From the NCBI RefSeq assembly GCF_010093345.1, contig NZ_PDWT01000003.1:248001-312000 (forward strand): a stretch of 64,000 bases of DNA. The letters are read 5' to 3'. The notes beneath the pieces are model-generated. The model did no database searches. It was not told where the DNA came from and was given only the letters and a program-made list of their open reading frames with translations. Below are positions 10,416 to 41,119 of this stretch, piece after piece. The position numbers were made by a program, and so were the translations under genes. Position 1 is the stretch's first letter. Each line of letters begins with the position of its first letter. The DNA is from Pseudoxanthomonas yeongjuensis. Lineage in GTDB: Bacteria > Pseudomonadota > Gammaproteobacteria > Xanthomonadales > Xanthomonadaceae.

Positions 10416-12962
10416 TCAGAACTTCTGCGAGAAACGCACGCCGAACATCCGTGGCTGGTTGGTGACCGTATAGATCTGGCCGTTCGGATACTCCGGGACG
10501 ACGCCGGCCGCACCGCAGACGCTCTCCGCGCATTGGGCGAACCGCGAGATCACCGCGCGCTCGTCGAACGCATTGCTCAGGAACAGGTCCACCGCCCAGC
10601 TGCCCTTGGCGATACCGGCCGAGAAATCGGCCGTCGTGTACGCCGGCAGGCTGCCGAGGATTTCCCGTTCGGCCAGGCGCAGGTCCGAGGTGCGCTGGCC
10701 GACGTGCACCACCGCGCCCTGGACATAGGCATCGAAGCCGCCGAGGTTGAAGTTGTAGCGCGCGGTCAGGTTGCCCTTGAACTTGGGCGTGACCGGCAGG
10801 CGGGTGCCGCTGGGCGCCTCGGGACCAGCGAACTCCTCGCCGGTATCGGGATTGATCACGCCGACCGGGCAATCGGTGATCGGCGTGCCCTCGGCGTCGG
10901 TCAGGCCGCAGAAGTTCTCGGTCAGCTTGGCGTCGTAGAACGCGGCGCCGCCGGAGATGTTGAGGTTGTAGGTGGCGGCCCAGTTCAATTCCATTTCCAT
11001 GCCGTTGATCCGGGCCTGGTTGGCGTTCTTGATCTCGGTCAGGCCGTTGGCGCCGAGGATCGCGAACTGGAAGTCCTTCCATTCCTGGCGGAAGACCGAG
11101 CCGTTGAAGGAAAGGCTGTTGTCGAACCAGGTGGTCTTCCAGCCCAGCTCGTAGTTGGTCAGGTAATCGGACATGTACGGCGGCAGGCTGCCGCGGCGGT
11201 TGTTGCCGCCGGGGCGATAGCCTTCCGACCAGGTGGCGTAGACCATCTTGCTGTCGTCGAAATGGTAGGTCAGGTTGAACTTGCCGATGGTGTCGTGCTC
11301 GCGCACGCCCTTGTCGATGTTGACGCAGGGCGAATTCATGAACGGCGTATCCGGGTTCGCGCAGAATGCGTCGGTATCGCTGTCGGGGTCGTCCTCGATG
11401 TAGCTGCGGAAACCATGGAAACCCTTCAACGTGTTGTCGACCCTGAACGAGCGGAAGCCCGCGGTGGCGGTCAGCTTGTCGGTGAAGTCGAAAGACAGTT
11501 CGCCGAACACGGCTTCGTCGTGGTCTTCGCGGATCTGCTTGGTCAGCCACAGCGTCCCCGGCCAACCCGGCACCGACGAATCCGTGGCCAGGCCGTCGAT
11601 GATGTAGTCCTGCTGGATGTCGTGGCGCTGGTCCTGCCAGAACAGGCCGCCGACGAAGCGCAGGCGGTTCTCCTGCGGCGAGGCGATGCGCAATTCGTGG
11701 CTGGTCTTCTTGTAGCCGTCCTTGCCCTTGATGTATTGCGACGGGTTGATCAGGTCGCCGTTGTCGTTGTAGATCGAGCCGCCGTAGGCGTACAGGGTGT
11801 CGTACCAGAACGAATAGTCGCTGTAGTCCGAATCGACCTCGTCGTCGCGCTTGAGGTGGGCGAAGGCGTAGGTGACGTCGAAGTTGCCGATCTTGCCCTC
11901 CACCGTCAGCGCCGCCTGCACCCACTTGTCCTCGCTGCGCTCGCGATAGGCGTGGGATACGGCCAGGTCGCCCACGTTCTCGTCGAAGGCGAAGCTGCCG
12001 TTGGCGGTCGCGGTCTGTCCCATCACCGTCGGGCTGATGGTCCAGTTGTCGTTGAGGTTCACCTTCAGCGCCAGGCGCGCGCCGGTGGTGTCGACGTCGT
12101 TGTAGTTGTCTTTCGCCCGCCCGGTACAGACCAGCAGGTCGGTCGAAGTGCAGTCGCGGTTGCTGACCACCCCGCCCCAGCTGGGCACCGCATCGGGATC
12201 GGCTTCGGTATCGCGGATCGGGAATTGCCGGTCGCCTTCGCGGTTGTCGATATAGCCGGCGTCATGCTGGTTCCAGCCCACCAGGCGGATCGCCGCCGTG
12301 TCGGTGACGGGGATATTGACGAAGCCTTCGGCGATGTGGCCGATGCCGCCATGACTGACGCTGTTCGCCTCCAGGCTGTAACCGGCTTCGAAACCGCTGG
12401 GGTCGGGCTTGTTGGTGATGATGCGCATGGTCCCGGCCTGCGAGCTGGCGCCGTACAGGGTGCCTTGCGGCCCGGCCAGCACTTCGACGCGGGCGACATC
12501 GTAGATATGGATGTCCAGCGGCCCCTGGATGGTGGTGACCGGTTGCTCGTCCAGGTACACGCCGACGCTGGGCAGCGGACCGGAATGGTTGCCGTCGCCG
12601 CCGCTGGAGACGCCGCGCATGTAGATCTGGGCGAAGCCGGGGCCGAACGTCTGGTAGGAGACGCTGGGCAGGTACTTCACGTAATCCTCGAAATCGGTGA
12701 CGTTGAGCTCTTCGAGTTTCTCGTTGCCCAGCACCTGGATGCTGATCGGCACCTTCTGCAGGTTCTCGGTGCGCTTCTGCGCGGTCACCGTGATCGTGTC
12801 CAGGGTCGCGGCCTCGGTGTTCTTCTGCGGCGCGGGGGCCGGCGCGGCCTCCTGCGCGAACGCGGCCGAACCCACCGCCAGGTAGATCGCCGCGGCCAGC
12901 GGCAAGCGGGCGAAGGTCGACGGAATTCGTCGGCCACCTCGTTTCGTGTCGTGCCTCTTCAT
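10416..12962 (-). CDS. TonB-dependent outer-membrane receptor
   Basis: An 848-aa receptor for active import across the outer membrane. A signal peptide ends near AFAQE, a TonB-box-like LDTITVTAQKR follows, then the plug domain (RGVSSGGDG, VEVLAGPQGTLYGASSQAGTMRI) and a 22-strand type barrel ending in aromatic Phe (FSQKF), the usual BAM signal. The ATG at 12960-12962 has GAGAGGTGA just upstream. It follows the TPR-sulfotransferase by 53 bp and ends in a strong terminator. The plug begins like siderophore-type receptors of Sphingomonas and Caulobacter that import diverse compounds. The context (peptidases, aminotransferases) suggests a peptide- or amine-related ligand, which is inference. Confidence 0.93.
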   Translation of the reverse strand: MKRHDTKRGGRRIPSTFARLPLAAAIYLAVGSAAFAQEAAPAPAPQKNTEAATLDTITVTAQKRTENLQKVPISIQVLGNEKLEELNVTDFEDYVKYLPSVSYQTFGPGFAQIYMRGVSSGGDGNHSGPLPSVGVYLDEQPVTTIQGPLDIHIYDVARVEVLAGPQGTLYGASSQAGTMRIITNKPDPSGFEAGYSLEANSVSHGGIGHIAEGFVNIPVTDTAAIRLVGWNQHDAGYIDNREGDRQFPIRDTEADPDAVPSWGGVVSNRDCTSTDLLVCTGRAKDNYNDVDTTGARLALKVNLNDNWTISPTVMGQTATANGSFAFDENVGDLAVSHAYRERSEDKWVQAALTVEGKIGNFDVTYAFAHLKRDDEVDSDYSDYSFWYDTLYAYGGSIYNDNGDLINPSQYIKGKDGYKKTSHELRIASPQENRLRFVGGLFWQDQRHDIQQDYIIDGLATDSSVPGWPGTLWLTKQIREDHDEAVFGELSFDFTDKLTATAGFRSFRVDNTLKGFHGFRSYIEDDPDSDTDAFCANPDTPFMNSPCVNIDKGVREHDTIGKFNLTYHFDDSKMVYATWSEGYRPGGNNRRGSLPPYMSDYLTNYELGWKTTWFDNSLSFNGSVFRQEWKDFQFAILGANGLTEIKNANQARINGMEMELNWAATYNLNISGGAAFYDAKLTENFCGLTDAEGTPITDCPVGVINPDTGEEFAGPEAPSGTRLPVTPKFKGNLTARYNFNLGGFDAYVQGAVVHVGQRTSDLRLAEREILGSLPAYTTADFSAGIAKGSWAVDLFLSNAFDERAVISRFAQCAESVCGAAGVVPEYPNGQIYTVTNQPRMFGVRFSQKF

Positions 12963-13015
12963 CTGCGTCACCTCTCTCTCCAGTGGTTGTTCAATGGTTC
13001 GTGACTTGTCTTCGC

Positions 13016-15037
13016 CTATGGGAACCCGGGTACTTCCGGATAGTTTTCGAGGACCGGGCCCAGCGCCCGCTTCAATGGCCCCAGCCAGGGTTCGAAATGG
13101 CGCCAGTGGTCGACGCCCTCGCGGTAGATCGGTTTGCGCACCTGTTCGGAGCTGGCGGTGCGCACCGCGCGCGTGTTCTCGAAGAAACGCAGGCAGCGTT
13201 CCTCGAACGGCAGGCCGCAGTATTCGAGCAGGCGCCGTACTTCGGTTTCGGTGTCGTCGACCATGCGTTCGTAGAAGACGCGATGGATGCGCCCCGGCAG
13301 CGCCTGGTCGAAATGCGCCATCAGTTCGACGTAATCGGCGTAGTAGCGGCCGATGTCGTCCAGGTCGTAGGTGAAGCTCTGGCCGCGGGCGAAGTGCTGC
13401 TTGAAACCGGAGAAACAGCAGGCCAGCGGATGCCGGCGCGCATCGATGATCTTCGCGTTGGGCAGGATCAGCTGGATCAGGCCGATGTGCAGGAAGTTGT
13501 TCGGCATCTTGTCGATGAAGAACGGCGCATCGGTCTTGCGCTGGATCCGCGTGTGCTGCAGATAACGTTCGCCGAGGACGCGCAGCGCTTCGGCGTCCAT
13601 CCCTTCCAGCACATCGTGGTAGGGCATGGCCTGCCCGGCCGTGGCCTGACCGCGCAGTTCGCGGGTGATCGAGGTGATCTCCGGCAACTCCATGGTGCCT
13701 TCGACCGCGGAGTGGCTGGACAGGATCTGCTCCAGCAGGGTGGAACCGGCGCGCGGCAGGCCGACGATGAAGATCGGATCGGGCGCGGCGGCGCCGAAGC
13801 CGGCGCGCCGTTCGAAGAACCCGCGGGTATAACCGCGCTTGATCCGCGCCACCCGCGCCGTGGTGTCGTTCGCGCTGTACGACAATGTCGCGCGGCGCAG
13901 TTCGTTGCCATGCCGGTAGTGTTGAAACGAGGCTTGGTATTCGCCCTCGTCCTCCAGCGCCTTGCCGATCGCGAACTCCAGGTGCTGGCGGTCCTCGGAG
14001 GCGAGCCGCGGCTGGTCGAGTTGCCGCCGCATCGCGGACAGGTCGTCGTCGGAAAACCGGAAAGTCTTCAGGTTGGCCAGGCTCCACCAGACCTCGCCCG
14101 AACCCGGCTCCAGGCGCAGGCTGCGGCGATACGCGTCGATGGCGCGATCCTGGTGGCCGGCGGTCTTCAGCGCATGGCCGTAGCTCATCCAGATCCTCGG
14201 GTGCTGTGGATAGACCTGGAGGATCTTTTCGTAGAGTCCGATGGCGGGTTCGTAATCACCGATACGGCATAACACCACCGCCTTGAGATTGCGATAACCG
14301 GGATTGTCGGGTTCGTCCGCGAGCAGTCGGTCGATCTGGACCAGCGCCTCGGCCGGCTTGTTGGAACGATGCAGCACCAGCGCGTAGTTCTGGCGCGCGG
14401 CATGGAAGCCGGGGGCCAGCTCGAGGCAGCGCGCCAGCAGGTTCTCGGCGTCCTCGTTGCGGCCCAGGCGCAGGGCGATTTCGGCCAGCATGCGGATCGC
14501 GGCGACGTCGGTCGGCGCGCGCCTGAGGTGTTCGCGCAGCGATGCTTCGGCTTCGGGGATGCGGTTTTCGCACAGCGCGGTGGCCGCGGCCAGCAGTTGC
14601 GGATCGCGGGTGGAGTAGCGCACGTGGTTGGCATAGGCCAGGTCCGCGCCTTCGGCATCGTCCATCGCCATCAGGTGGTCGCCCAGCGCCAGCCAGGCCT
14701 GCGGAAGGTCGGGCTTGAGCGCCACCGCGCGGCGCAACGCCGACGCCGCCGCATCGCCCTGGCCTGCCCGGCCCAGGGTGATGCCCAGTTCGAGCTGGGT
14801 CGCCGCCGAATTCGCCTGCGTGGCGGCCAGCGGCTGCAGGATCCGCAACGCGCCTTCGAGGTCGCCGCGCGCGCGCCGGGAAACGCCGAGCACCAGCAGC
14901 GCGGCCGGATGTTCGCCGACGGCCTTGATGATTTCCGTCGCCTGTTCGCCGGCCAGCGTCGGATCGGTCGTCAGCAGGCGCGAAGCATGCGCGAGCGCGG
15001 TGTCCAGGTCGGCGGTCGGCGCGACGGCGCTGTTCAT
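13016..15037 (-). CDS. TPR-repeat sulfotransferase family protein
   Basis: A 673-aa protein. Residues about 20-330 are tetratricopeptide repeats (for example YRNLKAVVLCRIGDYEPAIGL). Residues about 420-660 are a sulfotransferase domain with the PAPS 5'-phosphosulfate loop GLPRAGSTLLEQIL and later DARRHPLACCFS, the usual 3'-phosphate region. No signal peptide, so it should act in the cytoplasm. Start: ATG at 15035-15037; an in-frame GTG five codons upstream is possible and neither has a clear ribosome site. Such proteins recur next to TonB receptors in xanthomonads and sphingomonads, but their acceptor substrate is not known to me. Confidence 0.85.
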   Translation of the reverse strand: MNSAVAPTADLDTALAHASRLLTTDPTLAGEQATEIIKAVGEHPAALLVLGVSRRARGDLEGALRILQPLAATQANSAATQLELGITLGRAGQGDAAASALRRAVALKPDLPQAWLALGDHLMAMDDAEGADLAYANHVRYSTRDPQLLAAATALCENRIPEAEASLREHLRRAPTDVAAIRMLAEIALRLGRNEDAENLLARCLELAPGFHAARQNYALVLHRSNKPAEALVQIDRLLADEPDNPGYRNLKAVVLCRIGDYEPAIGLYEKILQVYPQHPRIWMSYGHALKTAGHQDRAIDAYRRSLRLEPGSGEVWWSLANLKTFRFSDDDLSAMRRQLDQPRLASEDRQHLEFAIGKALEDEGEYQASFQHYRHGNELRRATLSYSANDTTARVARIKRGYTRGFFERRAGFGAAAPDPIFIVGLPRAGSTLLEQILSSHSAVEGTMELPEITSITRELRGQATAGQAMPYHDVLEGMDAEALRVLGERYLQHTRIQRKTDAPFFIDKMPNNFLHIGLIQLILPNAKIIDARRHPLACCFSGFKQHFARGQSFTYDLDDIGRYYADYVELMAHFDQALPGRIHRVFYERMVDDTETEVRRLLEYCGLPFEERCLRFFENTRAVRTASSEQVRKPIYREGVDHWRHFEPWLGPLKRALGPVLENYPEVPGFP

Positions 15038-15128
15038 GCGGGATCGCGCCACGACTGCGATGCGCGTTGCGGCACTGAAATCGGAATTACGGATTCATCC
15101 TGCATGCGCATCGCTTGAACCCCGATCT

Positions 15129-16538
15129 TCATAACGCCTGCAACAATCTATAGTTGAACTGCAGCGATTGATAGTAGGACTCCACGCGCATGCGTTCGTC
15201 CTGTCCGTGGGCGCGATCATCGTCGACGTCATAGGCGATACCGTTGAAGACATAGACCGGCATGCCCGCCGCGCGCAAGAACACGCTGTCGGTGGCGCCC
15301 GCGGACATGTAGGGCGAAACCGGGATTTCACTCCACATGTCTTTCGCCACCTCGGCGATGCGGGCGAAGAGTTCGGGATTCACCGGCGAAGGCGGGCTGG
15401 GCATCGGCTCGGCGACGCGCGCGAATTCGATGGCGGGATCGGCGACGGCCTGCTTCAGTGCGGCTTCGACCGCGGCAGGATCCTCGCCCGGCAGCACGCG
15501 GCAATTCACCGTGGCCTGGGCCATCTGCGGCAGGGCGTTCTCGGCATGTCCGCCTTTCAGCAAAGTGGGGATGCAGGTGGTGCGCAACTGCGCGTTGTTG
15601 TAAGTGGAGGTGGCGGCCAGCCGGGCCAGCGCCACGACGTCCTGCGGCTCCGTGGCGGCGGCGCGCATGTCTTCGGCGACCTGCCCGGAATACAACGAGG
15701 CCAGGCCCTTGTAGTAGCCGCGCGTGGCGGAGTTGGTCCGCAACGGGAACTGGTACGAAGCCAGCCGCGACAAACCTTGCGCCAGCCGGTAGATGGCGTT
15801 GTCCGGCGTGGGCAACGAACTGTGCCCGCCCGGATTGCGCGCGGTCAGGGTGAAGCTGAGATAGACCTTCTCCGCGGTTTCCACCGACAGCACCGCCGGC
15901 TTGCCGTTGCGGATCTCCGGACCACCGCCATCGACGTTGATGCCGTAGGCCGCCTCGACCAGTTCCGGACGATGCGCCAGCAGCCATTGCACACCGTTGT
16001 CGCCGCCGTCTTCCTCGCCTGCGGTCAGGGCGAGCACGTAATCGCCGCGCGGCACGATTTTTTCCGCATGCAGGCGCAACAGCGTCGCGACCAGGCCGGC
16101 CGCGCCGCCCTTGATGTCGGAGGTTCCGCGTCCGTAGAAATACCCGTCGCTCTCGGTCAGCTTGTAGGGATCGAAATGCCAGTCCTCGCGCCGCGCCTCG
16201 ACCACGTCCAGGTGCGCCAGCAGCAGGATCGGCTCGCGCTCGCCGCGGCCGCGCAGGCGCACGACCAGATTGCGCTTGAGCGGGTGGTCGCCGACTACCA
16301 GCACGTCGGCCGGATCGAAACCGGCGGCGAGGAAGCGCCTGGCCAGCGATTCCGCGGCTGCGGTGGTGCTGCCGTGGTCCGGAGTGGTGTCGGTTTCGAT
16401 CAGTTCCTGCAGCAACTCGCGGCCCAGCACCCGCTGCGCTTGCGGCGTCCGCTCGGTCGCCGCCACGTTGGCGAGCGGAAGCATGGCCAACGCGGCCGTA
16501 ACGGCAAGGCGCAACCCGATGGGACGTTGCTGCTTCAT
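15129..16538 (-). CDS. Secreted M20 family metallopeptidase
   Basis: A 469-aa di-zinc peptidase (carboxypeptidase/dipeptidase family M20). Signal peptide ending near VAATE. Metal and catalytic motifs are in order: HLDVVEA, GRGTSDIKGG, TAGEEDGG, a dimerisation domain with NPGGHSSLPT, and a late histidine region in AHGQDERM. I chose the second Met (16536-16538) because GAGGA lies just before it; another ATG is four codons upstream. Family members include carnosinase-type dipeptidases and N-acyl amino-acid hydrolases. It starts 33 bp after the thiolase gene in the same operon, consistent with a role in releasing a substrate in the periplasm. Confidence 0.92.
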   Translation of the reverse strand: MKQQRPIGLRLAVTAALAMLPLANVAATERTPQAQRVLGRELLQELIETDTTPDHGSTTAAAESLARRFLAAGFDPADVLVVGDHPLKRNLVVRLRGRGEREPILLLAHLDVVEARREDWHFDPYKLTESDGYFYGRGTSDIKGGAAGLVATLLRLHAEKIVPRGDYVLALTAGEEDGGDNGVQWLLAHRPELVEAAYGINVDGGGPEIRNGKPAVLSVETAEKVYLSFTLTARNPGGHSSLPTPDNAIYRLAQGLSRLASYQFPLRTNSATRGYYKGLASLYSGQVAEDMRAAATEPQDVVALARLAATSTYNNAQLRTTCIPTLLKGGHAENALPQMAQATVNCRVLPGEDPAAVEAALKQAVADPAIEFARVAEPMPSPPSPVNPELFARIAEVAKDMWSEIPVSPYMSAGATDSVFLRAAGMPVYVFNGIAYDVDDDRAHGQDERMRVESYYQSLQFNYRLLQAL

Positions 16539-16571
16539 GTATTTCCTCATTCGGACTTCATGCGAAAGACT

Positions 16572-17774
16572 TCATGGAATTTCCAATGCCAGCGCCACGC
16601 CCTGGCCAACGCCGACGCACAGGCTGACCAATGCGCGTCGTTGTCCATGCCGGCGCAGCGCATAGGCCGCGGTCATGGCCAGGCGCGCGCCGCTGGCGCC
16701 GAGCGGATGGCCCAGCGCGATCGCGCCGCCATTGGCGTTGACCTGCGCCGCATCGTCGGCCAGTCCCAGCGCGCGGGTGCAGGCCAGCACCTGCGCGGCG
16801 AAGGCTTCGTTGATCTCGATCCGGTCGAAGTCGGCCAGGTCCAGTCCGGTGCGCGCCAGCAGCTTGTGGATGGCGGGTACCGGGCCGATGCCCATCAGCC
16901 GCGGCGCGACCCCGGCCGAGGCCATGCCGATGATCCGCGCCAGCGGTTCCAGGCCGTGCGTTTCGAGCGCTTCTTGCGAAGCGAGCAACACCGCGGCCGC
17001 GCCATCGTTGATGGCGGAGGCGTTGCCGGCGGTGATGCTGGTATCCGCGCCGAGCAAGGGCTTCAACGACGCGAGACGCTCCAGATCGGTATCGGGACGC
17101 GGTTGTTCGTCATGTTCGAAATCGATCGATCCGGTTTCCTGTGCGATGGAAACCGGAACGATCTCCTCGTCGAACCAGCCTTGCCGTCGCGCATGCGCCG
17201 CGCGCTGCTGGCTGCGCAAGGCATACGCATCCTGGTCGGCGCGGGCGATGCCGTGTTCGCGCGCCAGGTTCTCCGCGGTCCGGGTCATCGAATCGACGCC
17301 GAACCCCGCCTGCATGCGCGGATTGACGAAACGCCAGCCCAGCGTGGTGTCGGCCAGTTGCTGGTCGCGGTCGAATCCGTTGCCGGCCTTGGCCATGACG
17401 TAGGGCGCACGGGTCATGCTCTCGACGCCGCCGGCGACAATGAGGTCCGCTTCCCCGCAGGCGATCGCACGGGCGCCCTGCCCGATCGCCTCCAGCCCGG
17501 AGGCGCAGAGCCGGTTGACCGTCACCGCGGGCACGGTTTCCGGCAGGCCCGACAACAGGGCGGCCATGCGCGCGACATTGCGGTTGTCCTCGCCGGACTG
17601 GTTGGCGCAACCCAGGATCACTTCGTCCAGCGCGGTCCAGTCCAGCGCGGGGTGGCGCTGCCTCAACGCGATCAGCGGCAGGGCGGCCAGGTCGTCGCAG
17701 CGTACCCCGGCGAGTGCGCCGCCGTAGCGCCCGAAGGGCGTACGCGTCGCATCGACGAGGTAGGCGCGGTTCAC
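16572..17774 (-). CDS. pcaF: 3-oxoadipyl-CoA thiolase-type acetyl-CoA acyltransferase
   Basis: A 400-aa thiolase. The segment [17 protein letters not shown] is characteristic of 3-oxoadipyl-CoA thiolases (PcaF/PaaJ), which split 3-oxoadipyl-CoA into succinyl-CoA and acetyl-CoA. Nucleophile Cys90 lies in [15 protein letters not shown] carries the catalytic His and LCVGVGQG the second Cys. Start is GTG (17772-17774), preceded by AGGAG, and overlaps the iclR stop by 4 bp (GTGA), suggesting translational coupling. No ring-cleavage genes are nearby. The partner CoA-transferase lies in the divergent operon, so the substrate is probably 3-oxoadipate or a close analogue. Confidence 0.9.
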
Positions 17775-18586
17775 AGGCCCTGTCTCCTGTACACATGCGG
17801 CGCCCAACCGCCCTGCCGGATCGCTTGCTCGATTTGCGGCTGCGCCGCGCGCAGCGCGGGCAGGATTTCCTTGATGGCGCGGTCGTGCGCCTTGTCGTTG
17901 TACTGCATGCTCACGTTCAGGCCGGCCACCACGCAGCCGTTGCCGGCGCGGATCGGCACGGCGATGGAACACAGTCCAAGCTCGAGTTCCTGCGAGACCC
18001 GCGCATAGCCCTGCTTGCGCACGTTCTGAAGTTCGGTCTTCAGCGCGCGCGCATTGCGCAGCGTCTTCGGCGTGTAGGCCTGGAACGTGTTGCCCTGCAT
18101 CCAGGCGTCGAGTTCGGCCTCGGGCAGGTCGGCCAGCATCACCCGCCCCATCGAGGCGGCGAAGGCGGGCAGGCGCGCGCCCACGCCCAGGCCGATGCTC
18201 ATCACCCGGCGCACCGGCACCCGCAGCACGTAGACGATGTCGCTGCCGTCCAGCACTGCCATCGAACACGATTCGCCCACCTTCTGCGCCAGCTGCTCCA
18301 TGGTCTGCTGGGCCAGCTCGGTCAGGTCCAGCGAGGACAGGTAGCTGAAGCCGAGTTCCAGCACGCGCGGGGTCAGGAAGAAACTGCGCCCGCGCATGCC
18401 CACGTAGCCCAGGTGCTGCAGGGTCAGCAGGATCCGCCGCACCACGGCGCGCGAAAGATCGGTGCGCGTGGCGAGTTCGGACAGGCTGGGAGTGGGCAGG
18501 TCGTGGCCGAACGCGCGCAGCACCTGCAGGCTGCGCGCCAGCGATTGCACATAGTCGGGACTTTCTTCGAAACGCTCGCTCGCCAT
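17771..18586 (-). CDS. IclR-family regulator, PcaR/PobR-like
   Basis: A 271-aa regulator with an N-terminal winged HTH (residues 15-75: SLARSLQVLRAFG…LSELATRTDLSRAVVRRILLTLQHLGYV) and a C-terminal IclR ligand-binding domain (GESCSMAVLDGSDIVYVLRV, RQGYARVSQELELGLCSIAVPI). The sequence style is that of the PcaR/PcaU/PobR group controlling beta-ketoadipate pathways. The start at 18584-18586 places the HTH at the usual distance; a longer frame begins at 18643. It is divergent from the aminotransferase operon, and two PcaR-like palindromes lie in the gap, so it probably controls both directions. Confidence 0.9.
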   Translation of the reverse strand: MASERFEESPDYVQSLARSLQVLRAFGHDLPTPSLSELATRTDLSRAVVRRILLTLQHLGYVGMRGRSFFLTPRVLELGFSYLSSLDLTELAQQTMEQLAQKVGESCSMAVLDGSDIVYVLRVPVRRVMSIGLGVGARLPAFAASMGRVMLADLPEAELDAWMQGNTFQAYTPKTLRNARALKTELQNVRKQGYARVSQELELGLCSIAVPIRAGNGCVVAGLNVSMQYNDKAHDRAIKEILPALRAAQPQIEQAIRQGGWAPHVYRRQGL

Positions 18587-18635
18587 GCGCCGCTGCAGGT
18601 GGATTGACAGGTCGAGCGTAGAAGGTTTCCAATGG

Positions 18636-18669
18636 GTTCGCAATACGAATTAGCGTGCGATTACCGCAC
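18636..18669. promoter_or_regulatory. Tandem PcaR/PcaU-like operator palindromes
   Basis: Two 15-bp palindromes: GTTCGCAATACGAAT (18636-18650) and GTGCGATTACCGCAC (18655-18669), with centres 19 bp apart, about two helical turns. The second matches the PcaR site known from Pseudomonas putida (GTTCGATAATCGCAC, from memory) at 12 of 15 positions. They lie in the 105-bp gap between iclR and the aminotransferase gene. An upstream ATG for the latter (18632) would put the operator inside the coding region, so the GTG at 18692 is preferred. Confidence 0.65.
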
Positions 18670-18691
18670 AAAACAACTTTGGAATGCATGC

Positions 18692-20038: not shown

Positions 20039-20060
20039 AGTCCGCCGGAGGAGAGCCCGC

Positions 20061-21629: not shown

Positions 21630-22480
21630 GCGCGCGCTTCCTGTCGCTGGCCGATGCGGTCGCCGAGCACGTGCAGGACGGCGACTGCGTGGCGCTGGAA
21701 GGTTTCACCCATCTGATTCCCTTCGCCGCCGGCCACGAGATCATCCGCCAGCGCCGCCATGACCTGCACCTGGTGCGGATGACCCCGGACCTGGTCTACG
21801 ACCAGATGATCGGCATGGGCTGCGCGCGCAAGCTGACCTTCTCGTGGGGCGGCAACCCGGGCGTCGGCTCCCTGCACCGGCTGCGCGATGCGGTGGAACG
21901 GCGATGGCCGCATCCGCTGCAACTGGACGAACACAGCCACGCCGGCATGGCCGCGGCCTTCTGCGCGGGTGCGGCGCGGCTGCCGTTCGGCGTCCTGCGC
22001 GGTTATCTGGATACCGACCTGCCGGCGCACAACTCCAATATCCGCCGCGTCCAGTGCCCGTTCACCGGCGAATCCTTGGCCGCCGTGCCCGCGATCAATC
22101 CCGACGTCACTATCCTGCATGCGCAATGCGCCGACCGCCAGGGCAACGTCGCCCTGCACGGCATCGTCGGTGCCGCGCGCGAGGCGGCACTGGCCGCGAA
22201 GTCGCTGCTGGTCACGGTGGAAGAGATCGTCGAGAGCCTGTCGCCGGCGATGAACGGCATGCTGCTGCCGCATTGGGTGGTCGATGCGGTCGCGCATTGC
22301 CCGGGTGGCGCCTATCCCTCGTATGCGCAGGGTTATTACGAACGCGACAACGCCTTCTACCGCGACTGGGATGCGATCGCGCGCGATCGCGAGGTTTTCC
22401 TGGCATGGATGGGCGAGCACGTGTTGAATAGCGCCGACCATCGCGGCTTCCTCGGCAGCCTGCTGGAAAGAGCCGCTTGA
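21626..22480 (+). CDS. catI: CoA-transferase subunit A (CatI-type 3-oxoadipate CoA-transferase)
   Basis: A 284-aa alpha subunit of a heteromeric class I CoA-transferase. The early LEGFTHLIPFAAGHEIIRQ, VRMTPDLVYDQMIG, FSWGGNPGVGSLHRLRDAVE and the late YAQGYYERDN match CatI/GctA-type subunits rather than the PcaI type. It moves CoA from succinyl-CoA to a dicarboxylate such as 3-oxoadipate. The start ATG (21626-21628) overlaps the dehydrogenase stop by 4 bp. Works with the next gene and with the thiolase in the divergent operon. Glutaconate or another dicarboxylate remains possible. Confidence 0.87.
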   Translation: MSARFLSLADAVAEHVQDGDCVALEGFTHLIPFAAGHEIIRQRRHDLHLVRMTPDLVYDQMIGMGCARKLTFSWGGNPGVGSLHRLRDAVERRWPHPLQLDEHSHAGMAAAFCAGAARLPFGVLRGYLDTDLPAHNSNIRRVQCPFTGESLAAVPAINPDVTILHAQCADRQGNVALHGIVGAAREAALAAKSLLVTVEEIVESLSPAMNGMLLPHWVVDAVAHCPGGAYPSYAQGYYERDNAFYRDWDAIARDREVFLAWMGEHVLNSADHRGFLGSLLERAA

Positions 22481-23262
22481 GCGCCTGCACCCGCGACGAA
22501 TGGATGACCATCGCCGCGGCGCGCCTGCTGTGGGACGGCTGCGTCTGCTTCGTCGGCATCGGCCTGCCCAGCGCGGCCTGCAACCTGGCCCGGCTGACCC
22601 ATGCGCCGGACATCGTGCTGGTCTACGAATCCGGCACGATCGGCACCCGCCCGGAAGTGTTGCCGTTGTCCATCGGCGATGGCGAACTGGCCCAGACCGC
22701 CGCCTACGTGGTGCCGTTGCCGGAAATATTCAGCTACTACCTGCAGGCCGGGCGGGTCGATGTCGGTTTCCTCGGCGCCGCGCAGATCGACCGTTTCGGC
22801 AACCTCAACAGCACCGTGATCGGTTCCTACGATGCGCCGGAGACTCGCCTGCCGGGCGCCGGCGGCGCGCCCGAGATCGCCACGCACGCGCGCCAGACCT
22901 TCGTCATGCTCAAGGCCACGCCGCGCAGCTTCGTCGAACGCCTGGATTTCCGCACCAGCGCCGGTTACCTCGGCGGATCGGGCGCACGCGCGCGCACCAC
23001 CGCACCCGGCGGCGGCCCGTGCGTGGTGATCAGCGACTTCGGCACGCTGGTCCCGCACCCACGCACCCAGGAATTGCAGTTGAGCGCGCTGTTTTCCGGC
23101 GTCGGCGTGGAAGAAGCCCGCGCCGCGGTCGGCTGGCCGCTGACGCTGGCCGAGCATGTCGGCCTCATCGACCCGCCCACCCCAAACGAACTCGAAACCC
23201 TGCGTGCACTGCACGCACGAACGCGCGCGGCGCACGCACGACCGATGCCACTACCCCTGTAA
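22477..23262 (+). CDS. catJ: CoA-transferase subunit B (CatJ-type)
   Basis: A 261-aa beta subunit. VCFVGIGLPSAACNLARLTHAP and LVYESGTIGTRP carry the catalytic glutamate Glu51 that forms the CoA thioester; GAAQIDRFGNLNSTVIG and LPGAGGAPEIA complete the CatJ/GctB pattern. The start is an unusual TTG (22477-22479) overlapping the catI stop (TTGA), consistent with strict coupling for 1:1 subunit synthesis. A 57-bp gap separates it from the second aminotransferase. Confidence 0.88.
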   Translation: MSACTRDEWMTIAAARLLWDGCVCFVGIGLPSAACNLARLTHAPDIVLVYESGTIGTRPEVLPLSIGDGELAQTAAYVVPLPEIFSYYLQAGRVDVGFLGAAQIDRFGNLNSTVIGSYDAPETRLPGAGGAPEIATHARQTFVMLKATPRSFVERLDFRTSAGYLGGSGARARTTAPGGGPCVVISDFGTLVPHPRTQELQLSALFSGVGVEEARAAVGWPLTLAEHVGLIDPPTPNELETLRALHARTRAAHARPMPLPL

Positions 23263-23319
23263 TCCCCACCCCACTCGTTCCTCGTTCCTCATCTCTCGTT
23301 TCTCATCCCAGGCTCCCCC

Positions 23320-24660
23320 ATGCACGACGCTTCCCCCACCCGTCCGCACCTCAAGACCGAACTTCCCGGCCCCAAGGCGCGCGCCATGATCGCCCGCGAT
23401 GCCGAAGTCATCTCGCCCTCGTACCCGCGCGACTATCCGTTCGTCATGTCGCACGGCCGCGGCACCGAGGTGTGGGACGTGGACGGCAACCGCTTCCTCG
23501 ATTTCGCCGCCGGCATCGCAGTCTGCGCCACCGGCCATGCGCATCCGCAGGTGGTGGCGGCGGTGAAGGCGGCGGCGGACGATTTCCTGCACATCTCCAG
23601 CGACTACTGGCACGAGAACATGACCGCGCTGGGCGAACGCCTGGCCGCGGTCGCGCCGATGAACGAACCGGCGATGAGCTTCCTGTGCCAGTCCGGCACC
23701 GAAGCGGTGGAAGGCGCGCTGAAACTGGCGCGCTACGTGACGAAACGCCCGCGTTTCATCGGTTTCCTCGGCGGTTTCCATGGCCGGACCATGGGTTCGC
23801 TGTCCTTCACTTCCAGCAAGTACACCCAGCAACTCGGTTTCGCGCCGACCATGCCGGGCGTGACCCACGTGCCCTACCCTAATCCTTACCGGCCGTTGTT
23901 CGCCGGCGACGACCAGGGCAAGGCGGTGCTCGATTACCTGCGCATGCTGTTCGAACGCAACGTGCCGGCGACGGAAGTGGCGGCGATCCTGGTCGAGCCG
24001 CTGCAGGGCGAAGGCGGTTACGTGGTGCCACCGCCGGGATTCCTGGCCGGCCTGCGCGCATTGTGCGACGAGCACGGCATCCTGCTGGTCTTCGATGAAG
24101 TGCAGTCGGGCGTCGGCCGTACCGGGAAGATGTTCGCTTGCGAACATTCCGGCGTTGCCCCCGACATCATGACCCTGGCCAAGGGCCTGGGCTCGGGCCT
24201 GCCGATCGGCGCGGTGGTGGCCAGGAAATCGCTGATGTCGCAGTGGAAACGCGGCGCGCACGGCAACACCTACGGCGGCAATCCGCTGGCCTGCGCCGCG
24301 GCCAATGCGACCCTGGACCTGGTGCGTGGCGGGCTTGTCGACAACGCGGCCACGGTCGGCGCGCATTTCATACGGCGCTTGCACGAACTGAAGCGCGACT
24401 ATCCGTGCATCGGCGAGGTCCGCGGCCAAGGCCTGATGATCGGCATGGAACTGGTCGAAGGCGACGAAGCGAAGACCCCGGCGCGCAGCCTGTGCGACGA
24501 CGTCATCACCCGCGCCTTCCACAACGGCCTGCTGCTGCTGTCCTGCGGCGCCAGCACGGTACGCTTCATGCCGCCGTTGAACGTCAGCGTGGCCGAGGTG
24601 GACGAAGCGATGGACCTGCTCGGGACTAGCCTGCACCAGGCCTTGCGCGGCACGCGATGA
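23320..24660 (+). CDS. Class III aminotransferase (4-aminobutyrate transaminase-like)
   Basis: A 446-aa PLP aminotransferase of the GabT/acetylornithine group. Motifs: GHAHPQVVAAVKAAADDFLH, QSGTEAVEGALKLAR, GGFHGRTMGSLSFTSSK, DEVQSGVGRTGKMFA and Schiff-base Lys288 in LAKGLGSGLP. Its likely substrates are omega-amino acids such as GABA, 5-aminovalerate or beta-alanine. Having two class III aminotransferases in one operon suggests two different amino groups or two related substrates. Its stop overlaps the next start by 4 bp. Confidence 0.88.
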   Translation: MHDASPTRPHLKTELPGPKARAMIARDAEVISPSYPRDYPFVMSHGRGTEVWDVDGNRFLDFAAGIAVCATGHAHPQVVAAVKAAADDFLHISSDYWHENMTALGERLAAVAPMNEPAMSFLCQSGTEAVEGALKLARYVTKRPRFIGFLGGFHGRTMGSLSFTSSKYTQQLGFAPTMPGVTHVPYPNPYRPLFAGDDQGKAVLDYLRMLFERNVPATEVAAILVEPLQGEGGYVVPPPGFLAGLRALCDEHGILLVFDEVQSGVGRTGKMFACEHSGVAPDIMTLAKGLGSGLPIGAVVARKSLMSQWKRGAHGNTYGGNPLACAAANATLDLVRGGLVDNAATVGAHFIRRLHELKRDYPCIGEVRGQGLMIGMELVEGDEAKTPARSLCDDVITRAFHNGLLLLSCGASTVRFMPPLNVSVAEVDEAMDLLGTSLHQALRGTR

Positions 24661-27212
24661 GGGCGCTGCGCCGGCTTCCGCTACTGCTGTTGGCCACGCT
24701 GTCGCTGGCCGGCACCGCGCAAGCCGGACGCGAACCCGTGCTCAAGCAGGTCGATCTGCCGCACAACTACTACTGGCGCGAGCTTTATATTCCACAGCTG
24801 ACCAGCGGACCTTCGTCGTTGAGCTTCATGCCCGACGGCCAGTCCCTGGTCTACAGCATGGCCGGTTCGCTGTGGCGCCAACGGATGGGCGAAACCAGCG
24901 CGACGGAACTGACCCACGCGACCGGCGCCTACGATCACCAGCCCGATGTCGCCCGCGACGGACGCAGCGTGGTGTTCGCGCGCTACGACGGCGCTGCGCT
25001 GGAACTGTGGCGGCTGGACCTGGCCAGCGGCCGCGAACAGGCGCTGACTTCCGGTGGCGCGGTCAACCTGGAGCCGCGCCTGTCGCCGGACGGCAAGCGC
25101 ATCGCCTGGGTCTCGACCCAGGGCAGCGGGCATTTCAACCTGTTAATCGCCGACATCGATGCCGATGGCCTGCATCGCGCACGGCCGTTGCTGGGCGAAC
25201 GCAAGAGCAGGCTCGATCGTTACTACTATTCGGCGTTCGACCACGCGATCAATCCTTCGTGGTCGCCGGATGGAAAGACGATTTACTACCTCACCAATCC
25301 CGAGATCGCCTGGGGCACCGGCGACCTGTGGTCGGTGGAGGTGGACCATCCCTCGCGACGCAGAAAGATCCTCAGCGAGGAAACCAGCTGGAACGCACGG
25401 CCGGAGCTGGCGCCGGATGGCAAGCGCCTGCTGTTCGGCAGCTACCACGGTCGCCAATGGCAGCAGCTGTGGCTGACCACGCCGGCGGGAGCGGTGCCGT
25501 TGCCGCTGACTTTCGGCGAGTACGACCGCCGCAACGCGCGCTGGTCGCCGGACGGCAAGCGCATCGCCTTCATCGACAACCGCGATGGCAACACCGCCTT
25601 GCGGGTGATGGACGTGATCGGTGGTGCGACGCAAACCATCGCCGCCACGAGCCGCGCCTACAGGACCGCAAGTTCGCGCCTGCTGCTGGATATCGTCGAT
25701 GAGCATGGCAAGCGCACGCCTGCGCGCGTGGCAGTTCTCGGCAGCGATGGACGCGCACATGCGTCGGCGGACGCGTGGATCCAGGCCGACGACGGTTTCG
25801 ATCGCGCGCTGCAATCGGCCGAAACGCATTACTTCCGATGCGCGCCGCCGTGCGCGCTGGACGTCCCGGTCGGCACGACGAAGGTGACGGTGCAACACGG
25901 TTTCGCTTATTCGCCATGGCAGCAACGGATCGAGGTGAAGGCAGGCGCCGACTCGAGCGTGCAGGCGAAACTCGTGCCGCAACGCCTGCCCGCGGCCTTC
26001 GGCGACTGGATCAGCGCCGACCTGCACGTGCACATGAACTACGGTGGCCACTACCGCAACACGCCGGACAACCTGGCTCGCCAGGCACGGGCCGAGGACC
26101 TGGACGTGGTCTTCAACACCATCGTCAACAAGGAAGAACGCATCCCGGACATCGGCTATTTCCGCACCGATGCCGATCCGGCCAGCACCGCGGCCACCAC
26201 GGTCCTGCAGGCACAGGAATACCACACCAGCTTCTGGGGCCACCTGGGCCTGCTGCAACTGGACGACCACTATCTCACTCCCGATTTTTCCGCCTACCGC
26301 CACACCGCACTGGCCAGCCCGTATCCGCACAACGGCGTGATCGCCGACCTCGCGCACGCACAGCATGGCGTGGTCGGCTACGTGCATCCCTTCGATACCT
26401 ATCCCGATCCGGGCAGGGATCCGCTGCTGAGCAATGCTTTGCCGGCCGATGTCATCAACGGCAAGATCGATTACATCGAAGTGGTCGGCTTCTCCGACCA
26501 CAAGTCCACGGCAGCGGTCTGGTACCGCCTGTTGAACCTGGGATTCCCGCTGGCCACCGGCGCAGGCACCGATGCGATGGCCAACTACGCTTCGCTGCGC
26601 GGGCCGGTCGGCATGAACCGGGTGTTCCTGGATACCGGCGGCAGGCGCGATGGGCCATCGCTGGCCGCTGCACTCAAGGGCGGGCATGGCTTCGCCAGCA
26701 ACGGACCGCTATTGGGATTGCTGGTCGACGGCGCCAAGCCGGGAGAAACCACCCAAGTCGCCTCCGGCAAGCATCGCTACCGCATCGCCCTGCGTTCGCC
26801 GGTGGCCATCGATCATCTGGAACTGGTGCACAACGGCCAGGTGGTCGAATCGTTCGCGCTGGGCGGCGACCGCCGCAGCCTCGACGACGACGGCGTACTG
26901 GAACTGGACGGCGGCTGGTTGCTGCTGCGCGCCTGGAACGACGCCGCCGATCCGCTGGTGCTGGATATCCATCCCTACGCCACCACCAATCCGGTCTGGC
27001 TGGGCGCGCCACAACCCACTGCGAGCGCGCACCAGGATGCGGCCTATTTTTCGGATTGGCTGGGACGCGTGATCGAAGCCGCTTCCGCACGCGACGATTA
27101 CAACGACGAAGCCGAGCGCAAGGCCACGCTCGATTATTTCCGCGAAGCCCGCGAACGCTATCAGGCGATCGCCGACGGCCGCGCCAACGTACAGGGGAAA
27201 ACCAGCGAATGA
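24657..27212 (+). CDS. Secreted TolB-like propeller plus CehA/McbA (PHP-type) metallohydrolase
   Basis: An 851-aa exported fusion. A signal peptide (to about AQAG) is followed by WD/TolB-like propeller repeats (LSPDGKRIAWVS, WSPDGKTIYYLT, WSPDGKRIAFID; residues 40-320). The C-terminal part begins with the metal site SADLHVHMNYGGHY near residue 455 and has VGYVHPFD, GTDAMANY and a terminal helical region. CehA/McbA enzymes hydrolyse carbamate or amide bonds (carbaryl hydrolases) and belong to the PHP superfamily. Placed between an aminotransferase and a peptidase with 4-bp overlaps on both sides, it may open an amide in the imported substrate. The natural substrate is unknown. Confidence 0.85.
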   Translation: MRALRRLPLLLLATLSLAGTAQAGREPVLKQVDLPHNYYWRELYIPQLTSGPSSLSFMPDGQSLVYSMAGSLWRQRMGETSATELTHATGAYDHQPDVARDGRSVVFARYDGAALELWRLDLASGREQALTSGGAVNLEPRLSPDGKRIAWVSTQGSGHFNLLIADIDADGLHRARPLLGERKSRLDRYYYSAFDHAINPSWSPDGKTIYYLTNPEIAWGTGDLWSVEVDHPSRRRKILSEETSWNARPELAPDGKRLLFGSYHGRQWQQLWLTTPAGAVPLPLTFGEYDRRNARWSPDGKRIAFIDNRDGNTALRVMDVIGGATQTIAATSRAYRTASSRLLLDIVDEHGKRTPARVAVLGSDGRAHASADAWIQADDGFDRALQSAETHYFRCAPPCALDVPVGTTKVTVQHGFAYSPWQQRIEVKAGADSSVQAKLVPQRLPAAFGDWISADLHVHMNYGGHYRNTPDNLARQARAEDLDVVFNTIVNKEERIPDIGYFRTDADPASTAATTVLQAQEYHTSFWGHLGLLQLDDHYLTPDFSAYRHTALASPYPHNGVIADLAHAQHGVVGYVHPFDTYPDPGRDPLLSNALPADVINGKIDYIEVVGFSDHKSTAAVWYRLLNLGFPLATGAGTDAMANYASLRGPVGMNRVFLDTGGRRDGPSLAAALKGGHGFASNGPLLGLLVDGAKPGETTQVASGKHRYRIALRSPVAIDHLELVHNGQVVESFALGGDRRSLDDDGVLELDGGWLLLRAWNDAADPLVLDIHPYATTNPVWLGAPQPTASAHQDAAYFSDWLGRVIEAASARDDYNDEAERKATLDYFREARERYQAIADGRANVQGKTSE

Positions 27213-29218
27213 AACGACTCGCCTGCCTGTTGCTGGCCATGTTCGCCTGCGACGCCAATGCGGCGATGCCCGAGGATCGCTTCCAGCCGTCCGACCTGGC
27301 GCGCCTGGCCGACCTGACCGAGCCCGGTTTTTCGGCCGATGGCGAACGCCTGGTGTACACGGTCACCACCGCCAATCTGGCCGAGGACAAGGCACAGTCC
27401 GATCTCTGGCGCGTGGACTACACCGGCGCCCGGCGCACCCGATTGACCAGCACCCCGGACAGCAGCGAGTGGCGGGGGCAATGGTCGGCGGATGGACGCT
27501 GGATCGCCTTTCTCTCGGACCGCAAGCAAGCTGGTGAAGACGAGGAAGACGCGACCACGCAGGTATGGACGATGCCCGCAACCGGCGGAAAAGCGCGCCG
27601 CGTGACCGATTTCGCCGATGGCGTCGAGGACTTCGCGTGGTCGCCGGATGGCAAGCGTCTTGCGGTGATCGCACTGGATCCGCAATTCCCGGCCGGCACG
27701 CCGAAACCGAAGAACCCGCCGCCGATCGTCACCGACCGCTACCAGTTCAAGGAAGACGGCAGCGGCTACCTGGGCTCGCGACGCAAACACCTGTACCTGT
27801 TCGACCTGGCCAGCGGCAAGGTCGAACAACTCACTTCCGGCGCGCACGACGAGCAACTTCCGGCGTGGTCGCCGGACGGAAAACTGATCGCCTACGTGAC
27901 CAAGCGTGGCCAGGATCCGGATCGCCACCTCGACTTCGACATCTACGTGATCGAACCGGAAGCCGGCGCCGGCGAGCGCCAGCTGACCACCTTCCCCGGT
28001 TCCGACCTGGACCCGTACTGGGAAACGCGCCCGGCCTGGAGCCCGGACAGCACGCGCATCGCCTACCTGCAGAGCGGCGAGGACCAATGGATCTATTACG
28101 CGCCGTGGCAACTGGCGGTGGTGGACGTCGCCAGCGGCAAGGCCACGATCCCCGCACCGATCGACCGCTGTTTCACCAAGCCGCGCTGGTCGGCCGATGG
28201 CAACAGCGTCTACGCCTTGATCGAACAGAGCCTGGTCACCCACCTGTCGCGCATCGACCTGGCCGACGGCAAGGTCACCGACCTGACCCATGGCGACCGC
28301 TTCGACTACGACCTGGACGTTTCACCCGGCGGACGCATCGTCGTGCTCGGCGGCGGCGACCACCATCCCTATGAAATCTCCGCCGTGGAGCCGGGGGGAT
28401 TGCGCGCGCTCGGCAGGCACAACGAATGGCTGGCCGGCAAGCGACTCGCGGACGTGGAGAAGATCCGCTTCGAGGCCAGGGACGGGACGCCGCTGGAAGG
28501 CCTGCTGGTGAAACCGGTCGGCTACGAACCGGGCAAGCGCTACCCCACCCTGCTGCGCCTGCATGGCGGACCGGTCTACGAATTCAGCCACGAGTTCATG
28601 CCCGACTGGCAGGCCTACGCCGCGCAAGGCTACGCCGTCGTCGCGGTGAATCCGCGCGGCAGTTCCGGCCGCGGCTTCGATTTCGCCAAGGCGATCCATG
28701 CCGACTGGGGCAACAAGGACGCGGACGATGTGCTGGCCGGCGTCGACCATGTGGTGGAGATGGGCATCGCCGATCCACAGCACCTCGGTATCGGCGGCTG
28801 GAGCTACGGCGCCATCCTGACCAACGCGGTGATCGCGCGCGACACCCGCTTCAAGGCCGCGATCAGCGGCGCCGGCGCCTCCAACATGTACGCGATGTAC
28901 GGCCACGACCAGTACATCCGCGAGTACGAGATCGAACTGGGCACGCCCTGGGAAGACCGCACGCAATACGACCGCGCCAGTTATCCGTTCCTGCACGCGG
29001 ACCGGATCAAGACCCCGACCCTGTTCCAGTGCGGCGAAGCGGACTACAACGTGCCCTGCCTGGGCGCCGAGCAGATGTACCAGGCGCTGCGCTCGCTCGA
29101 AATACCGACCCAGTTGGTGATCTATCCGGGCGAGAACCACGGCCTGACCGTGCCCAGCTACCTGCGCGACCGGCTGGAGCGGAACCTGGCTTGGTACGAC
29201 AAGTATTTGAAGCCGTGA
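27209..29218 (+). CDS. Secreted S9C family prolyl-oligopeptidase-like serine peptidase
   Basis: A 669-aa peptidase with signal peptide (DANAA), a TolB-like propeller (WSADGRWIAFLSDRKQ, WSPDGKLIAYVTKRG) and an alpha/beta hydrolase C-terminus with nucleophile Ser532 in GGWSYGA, Asp in GEADYNVP and His in PGENHGL. Family S9C includes acylaminoacyl peptidases and dipeptidyl peptidases. The start overlaps the CehA-type gene by 4 bp; it is the last gene of the rightward operon, followed by an inverted repeat. Confidence 0.93.
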   Translation: MKRLACLLLAMFACDANAAMPEDRFQPSDLARLADLTEPGFSADGERLVYTVTTANLAEDKAQSDLWRVDYTGARRTRLTSTPDSSEWRGQWSADGRWIAFLSDRKQAGEDEEDATTQVWTMPATGGKARRVTDFADGVEDFAWSPDGKRLAVIALDPQFPAGTPKPKNPPPIVTDRYQFKEDGSGYLGSRRKHLYLFDLASGKVEQLTSGAHDEQLPAWSPDGKLIAYVTKRGQDPDRHLDFDIYVIEPEAGAGERQLTTFPGSDLDPYWETRPAWSPDSTRIAYLQSGEDQWIYYAPWQLAVVDVASGKATIPAPIDRCFTKPRWSADGNSVYALIEQSLVTHLSRIDLADGKVTDLTHGDRFDYDLDVSPGGRIVVLGGGDHHPYEISAVEPGGLRALGRHNEWLAGKRLADVEKIRFEARDGTPLEGLLVKPVGYEPGKRYPTLLRLHGGPVYEFSHEFMPDWQAYAAQGYAVVAVNPRGSSGRGFDFAKAIHADWGNKDADDVLAGVDHVVEMGIADPQHLGIGGWSYGAILTNAVIARDTRFKAAISGAGASNMYAMYGHDQYIREYEIELGTPWEDRTQYDRASYPFLHADRIKTPTLFQCGEADYNVPCLGAEQMYQALRSLEIPTQLVIYPGENHGLTVPSYLRDRLERNLAWYDKYLKP

Positions 29219-37982: not shown

Positions 37983-38109
37983 TCTTGTCACTCCCTCACC
38001 TGATGTCCGCCGCTCCGGATGGAGGCCGGCACTGGATTGTCCCGGGGACACCATACGGCCCCGCAACGAATAGTTGTTGTTGCACCGCACACTCTGTTAC
38101 GGTTTTTTT

Positions 38110-38125
38110 GACCAGCGGTGTCATT
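38110..38125. promoter_or_regulatory. Putative LacI-type operator between kdgK and the TonB receptor
   Basis: Read on the minus strand the site is AATGACACCGCTGGTC, sharing AATGACACCG with the sites at 44341 and 49412. It sits about 95 bp before the receptor start and 128 bp before the kdgK start, so it could control both. The right half-site is weaker than in the other two copies. Confidence 0.55.
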
Positions 38126-38220
38126 TTACCTCTGGAGGCAGTCCCGAGGTAGGTGAATTCAATTCGATCCAACGTGAAAAGCGCCCTAGAGCGATCATGT
38201 GCCCTTGAGGAGGGGAATCC

Positions 38221-41019: not shown

Positions 41020-41076
41020 CTGCCTGGGCCGGGACGGGGCTCTCCACCCGTCCCGGTCGTCGCCAGGAACCCGCGA

Positions 41077-41110: not shown

Positions 41111-41119
41111 TGGCTTTCT

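Follow-up and report, generated by a model that had tools for sequence, protein, structure and literature searches.

A gene cluster of Pseudoxanthomonas yeongjuensis joining aminotransferases to 3-oxoadipate enzymes, with beta-lysine as a tentative substrate

The window analysed here is a stretch of 64,000 nucleotides from contig NZ_PDWT01000003.1 (positions 248,001 to 312,000) of the 3.94 Mb genome of Pseudoxanthomonas yeongjuensis. It holds a cluster in which enzymes for the final steps from 3-oxoadipate lie with aminotransferases and peptidases; all coordinates are those of the window. The cluster is likely to encode a genuine pathway from an amine-bearing acid to 3-oxoadipate. A preliminary description of this DNA ended the cluster at 29218 and named eleven genes, all of which were found in family and profile searches of the window proteins. 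The conserved unit, however, runs from 10416 to 36926. The list had missed an IclR-type regulator gene in the gap between the thiolase gene and the first aminotransferase gene, as well as five downstream genes, for an S58 peptidase, a Rieske oxygenase, an M38 peptidase, an APC permease and a flavoprotein, which travel together with the cluster in relatives.

Two divergent gene sets make up the first part of the unit. On the plus strand are a class III aminotransferase (AT1; 18692..20038; PF00202), with a GTG start placed from orthologues, and an aldehyde dehydrogenase (ALDH) resembling pyrroline-5-carboxylate (P5C) dehydrogenase (20061..21629; PF00171). These are followed by the CatI-type subunit A (21626..22480) and CatJ-type subunit B (22477..23262) of a CoA-transferase (CoAT A and CoAT B), both matching PF01144, subunit B with Glu51 in an ESG motif. 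A second class III aminotransferase (AT2; 23320..24660), ornithine-aminotransferase-like, exceeds the curated cut-off of NF004426 (582.8 against 552 bits), and next to it are a CehA/McbA-type metallohydrolase with propeller repeats (24657..27212; NF038032, 224.5 bits, cut-off 80) and an S9 peptidase of the prolyl oligopeptidase/DPP5-like kind (27209..29218; PF00326).

The minus strand carries the IclR-type regulator of the PcaR/PcaU/PobR family (17771..18586; start inferred, listed open reading frame (ORF) to 18643), a 3-oxoadipyl-CoA thiolase (PcaF; 16572..17774), an M20 peptidase with an N-terminus that by eye is signal-peptide-like (15129..16550; PF01546; NF006596, 561.3 bits, cut-off 349), a TPR-sulfotransferase (13016..15037; PF13469 and TPR repeats) and a TonB-dependent receptor (10416..12962; PF00593 and PF07715). 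The receptor gene, in place in Lysobacterales loci, has a likely ATG start at 12962 within an ORF listed to 14087. The boundaries of the receptor, sulfotransferase, regulator and AT1 genes were corrected from ORF translations and orthologue starts. Four-base overlaps join the regulator and thiolase genes, ALDH and CoAT A, CoAT A and CoAT B, AT2 and CehA, and CehA and S9.

Downstream, the S58 peptidase (29369..30529, minus strand; PF03576, 393.4 bits, cut-off 23.9) is of the DmpA/BapA type, a family of beta-peptidyl and D-aminopeptidases, with solved relatives 1b65 and 3n2w. Four plus-strand genes follow: the Rieske oxygenase (30585..31652), carnitine-monooxygenase-like; the M38 peptidase (31649..32941; NF051886, 506.6 bits, cut-off 500), related to the arginine carboxypeptidase Cc2672 (3mtw, 325.8 bits); the APC permease (33534..34847; PF13520), nearest to the basic amino acid/polyamine antiporter group (TIGR00905, 278.6 bits, below the cut-off of 409); and an FMN/Fe-S amine dehydrogenase (34851..36926), the flavoprotein, which is histamine-dehydrogenase-like (6de6, 785 bits; 3k30, 778 bits; trimethylamine dehydrogenase, 576 bits). 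A long intergenic stretch at 32960-33500, in which repeated elements are visible by eye, separates the permease gene from that of the M38 peptidase.

The gene set is conserved in relatives. The neighbourhoods of the CoAT A gene were compared in 12 relatives with enough DNA, and in all 12 the regulator gene is divergent from AT1-ALDH-CoAT A-CoAT B-AT2. Downstream of these come the M38 peptidase (12/12), the Rieske oxygenase (11/12) and the APC permease (11/12); the thiolase is present in 11, the S58 peptidase in 10, the flavoprotein in 10 (within the DNA fetched) and CehA in 8. One of the 12 (G310) has the S58 gene inverted and the Rieske gene missing. In two further relatives (G003 and G090), whose contigs measure 3.2 and 4.9 kb, the cluster is seen only in part. 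Distribution within the order is patchy: CoAT A was matched at E<=1e-60 in 19 of 299 genomes, this one included, seven of the 19 being the g24 group at 65-67% identity. At E<=1e-30 it was matched in 7 of 61 genomes, again counting this one, and one of these matches (G060) is just 41% identical and without other cluster genes. In an even draw from the phylum, with at most four candidates scored per genome, AT1 was matched at E<=1e-130 in 1 of 398 genomes, that of the window itself, and the module is therefore rare.

When GTDB genomes were scanned with the AT1 alignment, 178 stretches were matched; 129 of these encode relatives, and the best 80 were kept as loci. By their record titles, which can be wrong for metagenome-assembled genomes (MAGs), these belong to Proteobacteria (Lysobacterales, Steroidobacteraceae, Sphingomonas), Acidobacteria including Holophagae, Gemmatimonadetes and Verrucomicrobia. 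Matches in the 80, some of them distant paralogues and many of the loci being cut by contig ends, number 76 for ALDH, 69 for AT2, 64 for CoAT A, 47 for the regulator, 40 for CehA, 38 for the thiolase and 33 for S58. Counting was repeated at a minimum identity of 38% in the 54 roomy loci, those extending at least 3 kb upstream as well as 9 kb or more downstream: AT2 is found in 53, ALDH in 51, CoAT A and CoAT B in 50 each, CehA in 34, the regulator in 32, and the thiolase, S9 and S58 in 27 each. The full core in the order AT1-ALDH-CoAT A-CoAT B-AT2 is present in 47 of the 54, and the other seven lack CoAT (four, one also without ALDH), ALDH (two) or AT2 (one). This conservation of order is far beyond chance. 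The portable unit is these five genes rather than the eleven first grouped together, since the receptor, sulfotransferase and M20 genes are rare outside Lysobacterales (3, 7 and 4 of the 37 roomy loci not so titled). The module is real, rare and widely scattered, and its enzyme families are ordinary ones.

Several observations were made on individual loci of the scan. Reduced modules without CoA-transferase have the form AT1-ALDH-AT2 (an APC permease being added in L085 and L091) or, in L115 and L120, AT1-AT2 without ALDH; L099 also belongs to this group. In six loci (L062, L081, L083, L101, L103 and L109) histidine-utilisation genes lie upstream of AT1, comprising urocanase, N-formylglutamate amidohydrolase, HutF/HutI-like amidohydrolases and a GntR-UTRA regulator, the families being named on one representative each. 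Beside the Povalibacter uvarum cluster (L064:8605-9882) is a DAO-family gene that by eye resembles D-amino acid dehydrogenase. MAGs titled Klebsiella pneumoniae (L126) and Rhizobium sp. (L060) carry the module and are probably mislabelled or misbinned.

The divergent promoter contains two inverted repeats, at 18636-18649 (GTTCGCAATACGAA) and 18655-18669 (GTGCGATTACCGCAC), which are putative operators. The motif T[TG]CG-N5-CG[AC]A is present in 41 of the 44 divergent IclR-AT1 regions among the 80 loci, and in at least two copies in 23 of these. The first two copies are 19 bases apart in 20 of the 23, as they are in the window. Motif density is 65 copies in 6,896 divergent bases, against 0.27 per kb across the same loci. 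With up to two mismatches, GTTCGCAATACGAA is found in 35 of 45 regions, that of the window included, and no 14-mer was found in more than 3 of 45 after plain shuffling. Loose searches of the whole window with the operator pattern gave 25 matches against 26.8 expected, and 2 against 1.45, neither above chance; only the place and conservation of the motif count. Another exact match lies within the Rieske gene, at 30679, and is taken as chance. The motif may resemble the boxes of PcaU and PobR, for which no confirmation was found in the open-licence literature. The regulator may act at this promoter, perhaps in response to 3-oxoadipate.

The presence of a 3-oxoadipyl-CoA thiolase and a CatI/CatJ-type CoA-transferase, as first described, is borne out. 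The thiolase exceeds the curated cut-off of TIGR02430 (634.6 against 597 bits), and the regulator that of TIGR02431 (308.6 against 284.75 bits). In these respects the cluster is like the end of the beta-ketoadipate pathway (PcaIJ/CatIJ, PcaF, PcaR/PcaU). The glutamate of CoAT B is kept in 80/80 orthologues. Four pca-type relatives (G096, G210, G283 and G291) have CoAT A, CoAT B and thiolase homologues at 60-66% identity without AT1; CoAT A is 64-66% identical to theirs, and CoAT A and thiolase together 62-66%. In the three tested (all but G283) there are two PF00775 intradiol ring-cleavage dioxygenase genes, about 3 kb from the CoAT homologues. The cluster, in contrast, joins the end steps to two transaminases, an ALDH and peptidases. 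As the preliminary description had it, no ring-cleavage gene is among the annotated cluster genes, and PF00775, the one ring-cleavage family searched, has no match in this genome; of the 13 further cluster genomes examined in the order, 12 likewise have none and the remaining one (G049) has a match of 40 bits, over the cut-off. Aromatic catabolism is therefore unlikely to feed the 3-oxoadipate steps in the order. In a second set of 28 cluster genomes, at least three of them shared with the first 14, PF00775 is absent in 21. Anywhere in the genome, a PcaF-type thiolase over the cut-off was found in 20 of 27 cluster genomes, this one included, and in none of 14 controls.

A different arrangement is seen in a Holophagae locus (L098), in which CoAT A-CoAT B-thiolase (54-58% identical) lie directly upstream of AT1-ALDH. 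Peptidases of the S9 and M28 families and an amino acid permease are close by, and the genome has no PF00775 match. Here the 3-oxoadipate genes appear to be linked to AT1-ALDH a second time, in a separate arrangement.

The nature of the substrate is suggested by the two transaminases and the ALDH. The best solved relative of AT1 is taurine:2-oxoglutarate aminotransferase, and taurine is a beta-amino sulfonate. That of AT2 is Pyrococcus 7vno (382 bits), which we take to be an ornithine aminotransferase with Thr92 and Asp93 as substrate contacts. Asp93 is kept in 82/82 AT2 orthologues and Thr92 is replaced by Ser in 77, whereas the 4-aminobutyrate (GABA) aminotransferase PuuE has Gln facing Asp93; with the model for GABA transaminases AT2 scores 379.5 bits, short of the cut-off of 506.65. 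The nearest solved relatives of ALDH are P5C dehydrogenases. Its Ser321 (after the catalytic Cys), Glu135, Gly482 and Ala483 are each present in 79/79 orthologues, and these are presumably the glutamate-semialdehyde contacts of P5C dehydrogenase, Gly-Ala being the anchor. Beside the anchor loop there is a three-residue insertion. AT2 and ALDH thus resemble the ornithine aminotransferase and P5C dehydrogenase pair; the differences are that ALDH falls below the P5C dehydrogenase cut-off (TIGR01237, 370.9 against 659.65 bits) and that the cluster adds a third step, to a 3-oxo acid.

Beta-lysine (3,6-diaminohexanoate, or beta3-homoornithine) is ornithine with one CH2 added before the carboxyl group, and because of this three such enzymes acting on beta-homologues would give exactly 3-oxoadipate. 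From homology and chemistry we infer, tentatively, that beta-lysine derived from peptides or amides may well be the substrate, by a direct route; the C6 omega-amino or diamino acids first suggested are in this way narrowed to a beta,omega-diamino acid. Periplasmic peptidases would release the diamino acid and the APC permease would import it. AT2, as a putative beta-lysine omega-transaminase, would transfer the terminal amino group to a keto acid, and the 3-amino-6-oxohexanoate so formed would cyclise to a homologue of pyrroline-5-carboxylate. ALDH, as a candidate 3-aminoadipate semialdehyde dehydrogenase, would oxidise the cyclised product to 3-aminoadipate (beta-homoglutamate), and AT1, as a proposed 3-aminoadipate transaminase, would strip the beta-amine to give 3-oxoadipate. 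CoAT A and CoAT B would then form 3-oxoadipyl-CoA, and the thiolase would split it into succinyl-CoA and acetyl-CoA. The whole would be the conversion of ornithine to glutamate to keto acid, one carbon longer. An ornithine-type transaminase, a P5C-dehydrogenase-type dehydrogenase, a beta-amino transaminase and a 3-oxoadipate thiolase would so form a closed scheme in which each core enzyme is used once. The S58 family includes solved beta-peptidyl aminopeptidases.

The earlier outline of hydrolysis of a peptide or amide, deamination, formation of a dicarboxylate, CoA transfer and thiolysis stands as far as it could be examined, given the conservation of the genes and the missing PF00775 dioxygenase; the definition of the unit does not. 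No description of these enzyme families combined as a pathway was found in the open-licence literature, in agreement with the preliminary description, and absence from print does not follow. A KamA-type lysine 2,3-aminomutase was rejected as the source of beta-lysine within the cell, TIGR00238 being matched in 16 of 30 cluster genomes (15 over the cut-off) and absent from 14; in this genome the match is on a different contig from the cluster. As far as it is described in PMC2821294, the role of the KamA-type enzyme in EF-P modification fits those matches.

A number of points weigh against the proposed beta-lysine pathway. The Rieske oxygenase and the flavoprotein have no step in it. The conserved Asp of AT2 and the anchor residues of ALDH would equally suit derivatives of ornithine or lysine, and nothing in the analysis points to beta-lysine peptides being abundant in the environment. 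The thiolase is local in only 27 of the 54 roomy loci, and ALDH is missing in three. Several of the PcaF thiolases found elsewhere in genomes adjoin what appear by eye, from ORFs rather than a family search, to be phenylacetate genes, because of which the genome-wide count is weak support. Eight loci keep AT1 and AT2 without CoA-transferase, and no CatI-type homologue was found elsewhere in those genomes at E<=1e-20; therefore another enzyme does the CoA step there, or the product differs. In the Holophagae genome AT2 is unmatched at E<=1e-120. In the second set, PF00775 is matched in 7 of the 28 genomes, six over the cut-off, including Lysobacter gilvus of the Lysobacterales (G336, 125.7 bits). 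Lastly, the orthologue and locus counts are not independent, some genomes having been counted twice across the relative and scan sets.

The Rieske oxygenase, just past the end first given to the cluster, has a carnitine monooxygenase rather than a ring dioxygenase as its nearest solved relative (6y8j, 163 bits). It and the flavoprotein are like the carnitine/glycine-betaine Rieske monooxygenases and trimethylamine dehydrogenase-type enzymes in family; they differ in that the Rieske protein has 139.3 bits with the GbcA model, below the cut-off of 670, and in the substrate pocket of the flavoprotein. Of the aromatic bowl of trimethylamine dehydrogenase, which we take to be Tyr60, Trp264 and Trp355, the 12 flavoprotein orthologues keep Trp264 (12/12), have Glu for Tyr60 (12/12), and at Trp355 have a gap beside an Asp kept in 12/12. 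Trimethylamine was rejected as the substrate, two of the three positions not being kept. These two genes appear to form an accessory branch, which would dealkylate or deaminate modified substrate, perhaps in an N-alkylated or further aminated form.

It is because of these two enzymes that an alternative in methylated lysine from proteins stays alive, and it is unlikely. In it the Rieske oxygenase and flavoprotein would remove N-methyl groups, AT2 and ALDH would give 2-aminoadipate, AT1 would give 2-oxoadipate, and CoAT and thiolase would act later. The carnitine-monooxygenase-like and amine-dehydrogenase assignments, the basic-amino-acid-type permease and the Cc2672-type peptidase suit basic N-alkylated amino acids. 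However, there is no obvious use for a 3-oxoadipyl-CoA thiolase and a 3-oxoadipate-type CoA-transferase after 2-oxoadipate, and two bowl positions are not kept in the flavoprotein. The orthologues of both enzymes are also uncommon in the 25 cluster genomes not titled Lysobacterales, while the core persists: the Rieske orthologue is 61% identical in one and at most 48% in the others, and the flavoprotein orthologue 70-73% in four and 61-62% in four more.

Quite unlikely is an acetylated beta-lysine route, reportedly worked out biochemically by Barker's group in a soil Pseudomonas, for whose N6-acetyl-beta-lysine transaminase (EC 2.6.1.65) we know of no gene. AT1 would transaminate N6-acetyl-beta-lysine, CoAT and thiolase would cut 6-acetamido-3-oxohexanoate to 4-acetamidobutyryl-CoA, and a deacylase would give 4-aminobutyrate, AT2 being the GABA transaminase and ALDH the succinate-semialdehyde dehydrogenase. 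This route, too, includes a transamination and the passage of a 3-oxo acid through CoA transfer and thiolysis, and it likewise needs two transaminases together with a CoA-transferase, thiolase and ALDH; the score of AT2 with the GABA transaminase model is in keeping with it, though below the cut-off. On the other hand, no acetyltransferase is among the annotated cluster genes (the rest of the genome was not searched), and the thiolase and CoAT both belong to the dicarboxylate (pca) type. ALDH is P5C-dehydrogenase-like with its putative carboxylate-anchor residues kept, and has 233.7 bits with the succinate-semialdehyde dehydrogenase model against a cut-off of 646. ALDH and thiolase thus point to 3-aminoadipate and 3-oxoadipate. 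The signal-peptide-like N-terminus of the M20 peptidase makes cytoplasmic deacylation of a CoA ester by it unlikely.

Catabolism of an omega-amino acid or of the nylon type (6-aminohexanoate) by way of adipate is very improbable: an omega-aminotransferase, ALDH and CoA-transferase give a similar outline, but one transaminase is left spare, and because acyl-CoA dehydrogenase, enoyl-CoA hydratase and 3-hydroxyacyl-CoA dehydrogenase are missing from the annotated cluster genes, adipate cannot reach 3-oxoadipyl-CoA within the cluster. A remnant of aromatic beta-ketoadipate catabolism beside unrelated peptidase genes, for which the nearness of thiolase, CoA-transferase and regulator to pca-type homologues speaks, is rejected as the least credible, mainly on the PF00775 dioxygenase unmatched in 13 of the 14 cluster genomes of the order, and also on the AT1-ALDH-CoAT-AT2 order kept in records of several phyla and the conserved motif in the divergent promoter.

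If the proposed beta-lysine pathway is correct, 3-oxoadipate is not solely an intermediate of aromatic catabolism, and patchily distributed bacteria, with many records from soil and freshwater, would derive it from a diamino acid. To our knowledge, no genes are known for the aerobic catabolism of beta-lysine, and the module would supply candidates. Annotation as PcaF or CatI would then not need to imply degradation of aromatics, and beta-amino-acid peptides would have a role as nutrients. A fuller version, which is doubtful as a whole, would make the cluster a complete route for beta-lysine-bearing peptide natural products of soil, like streptothricin or viomycin, with uptake through the TonB receptor, release by the beta-aminopeptidase, conversion of the ornithine-glutamate type to 3-oxoadipate, and the Rieske oxygenase and amine dehydrogenase for modified forms; such a route would join amino-acid and aromatic catabolism.

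Outside the cluster, on its 3′ side, positions 36963-44310 are probably an unrelated pectin locus. The genes there are one resembling sugar-acid kinases, another for a TonB receptor and a third for a PelZ-like pectate lyase, whose 402.5 bits do not reach the cut-off of 840. Further on, at 55669-61386, there is a single minus-strand ORF of 1905 aa.

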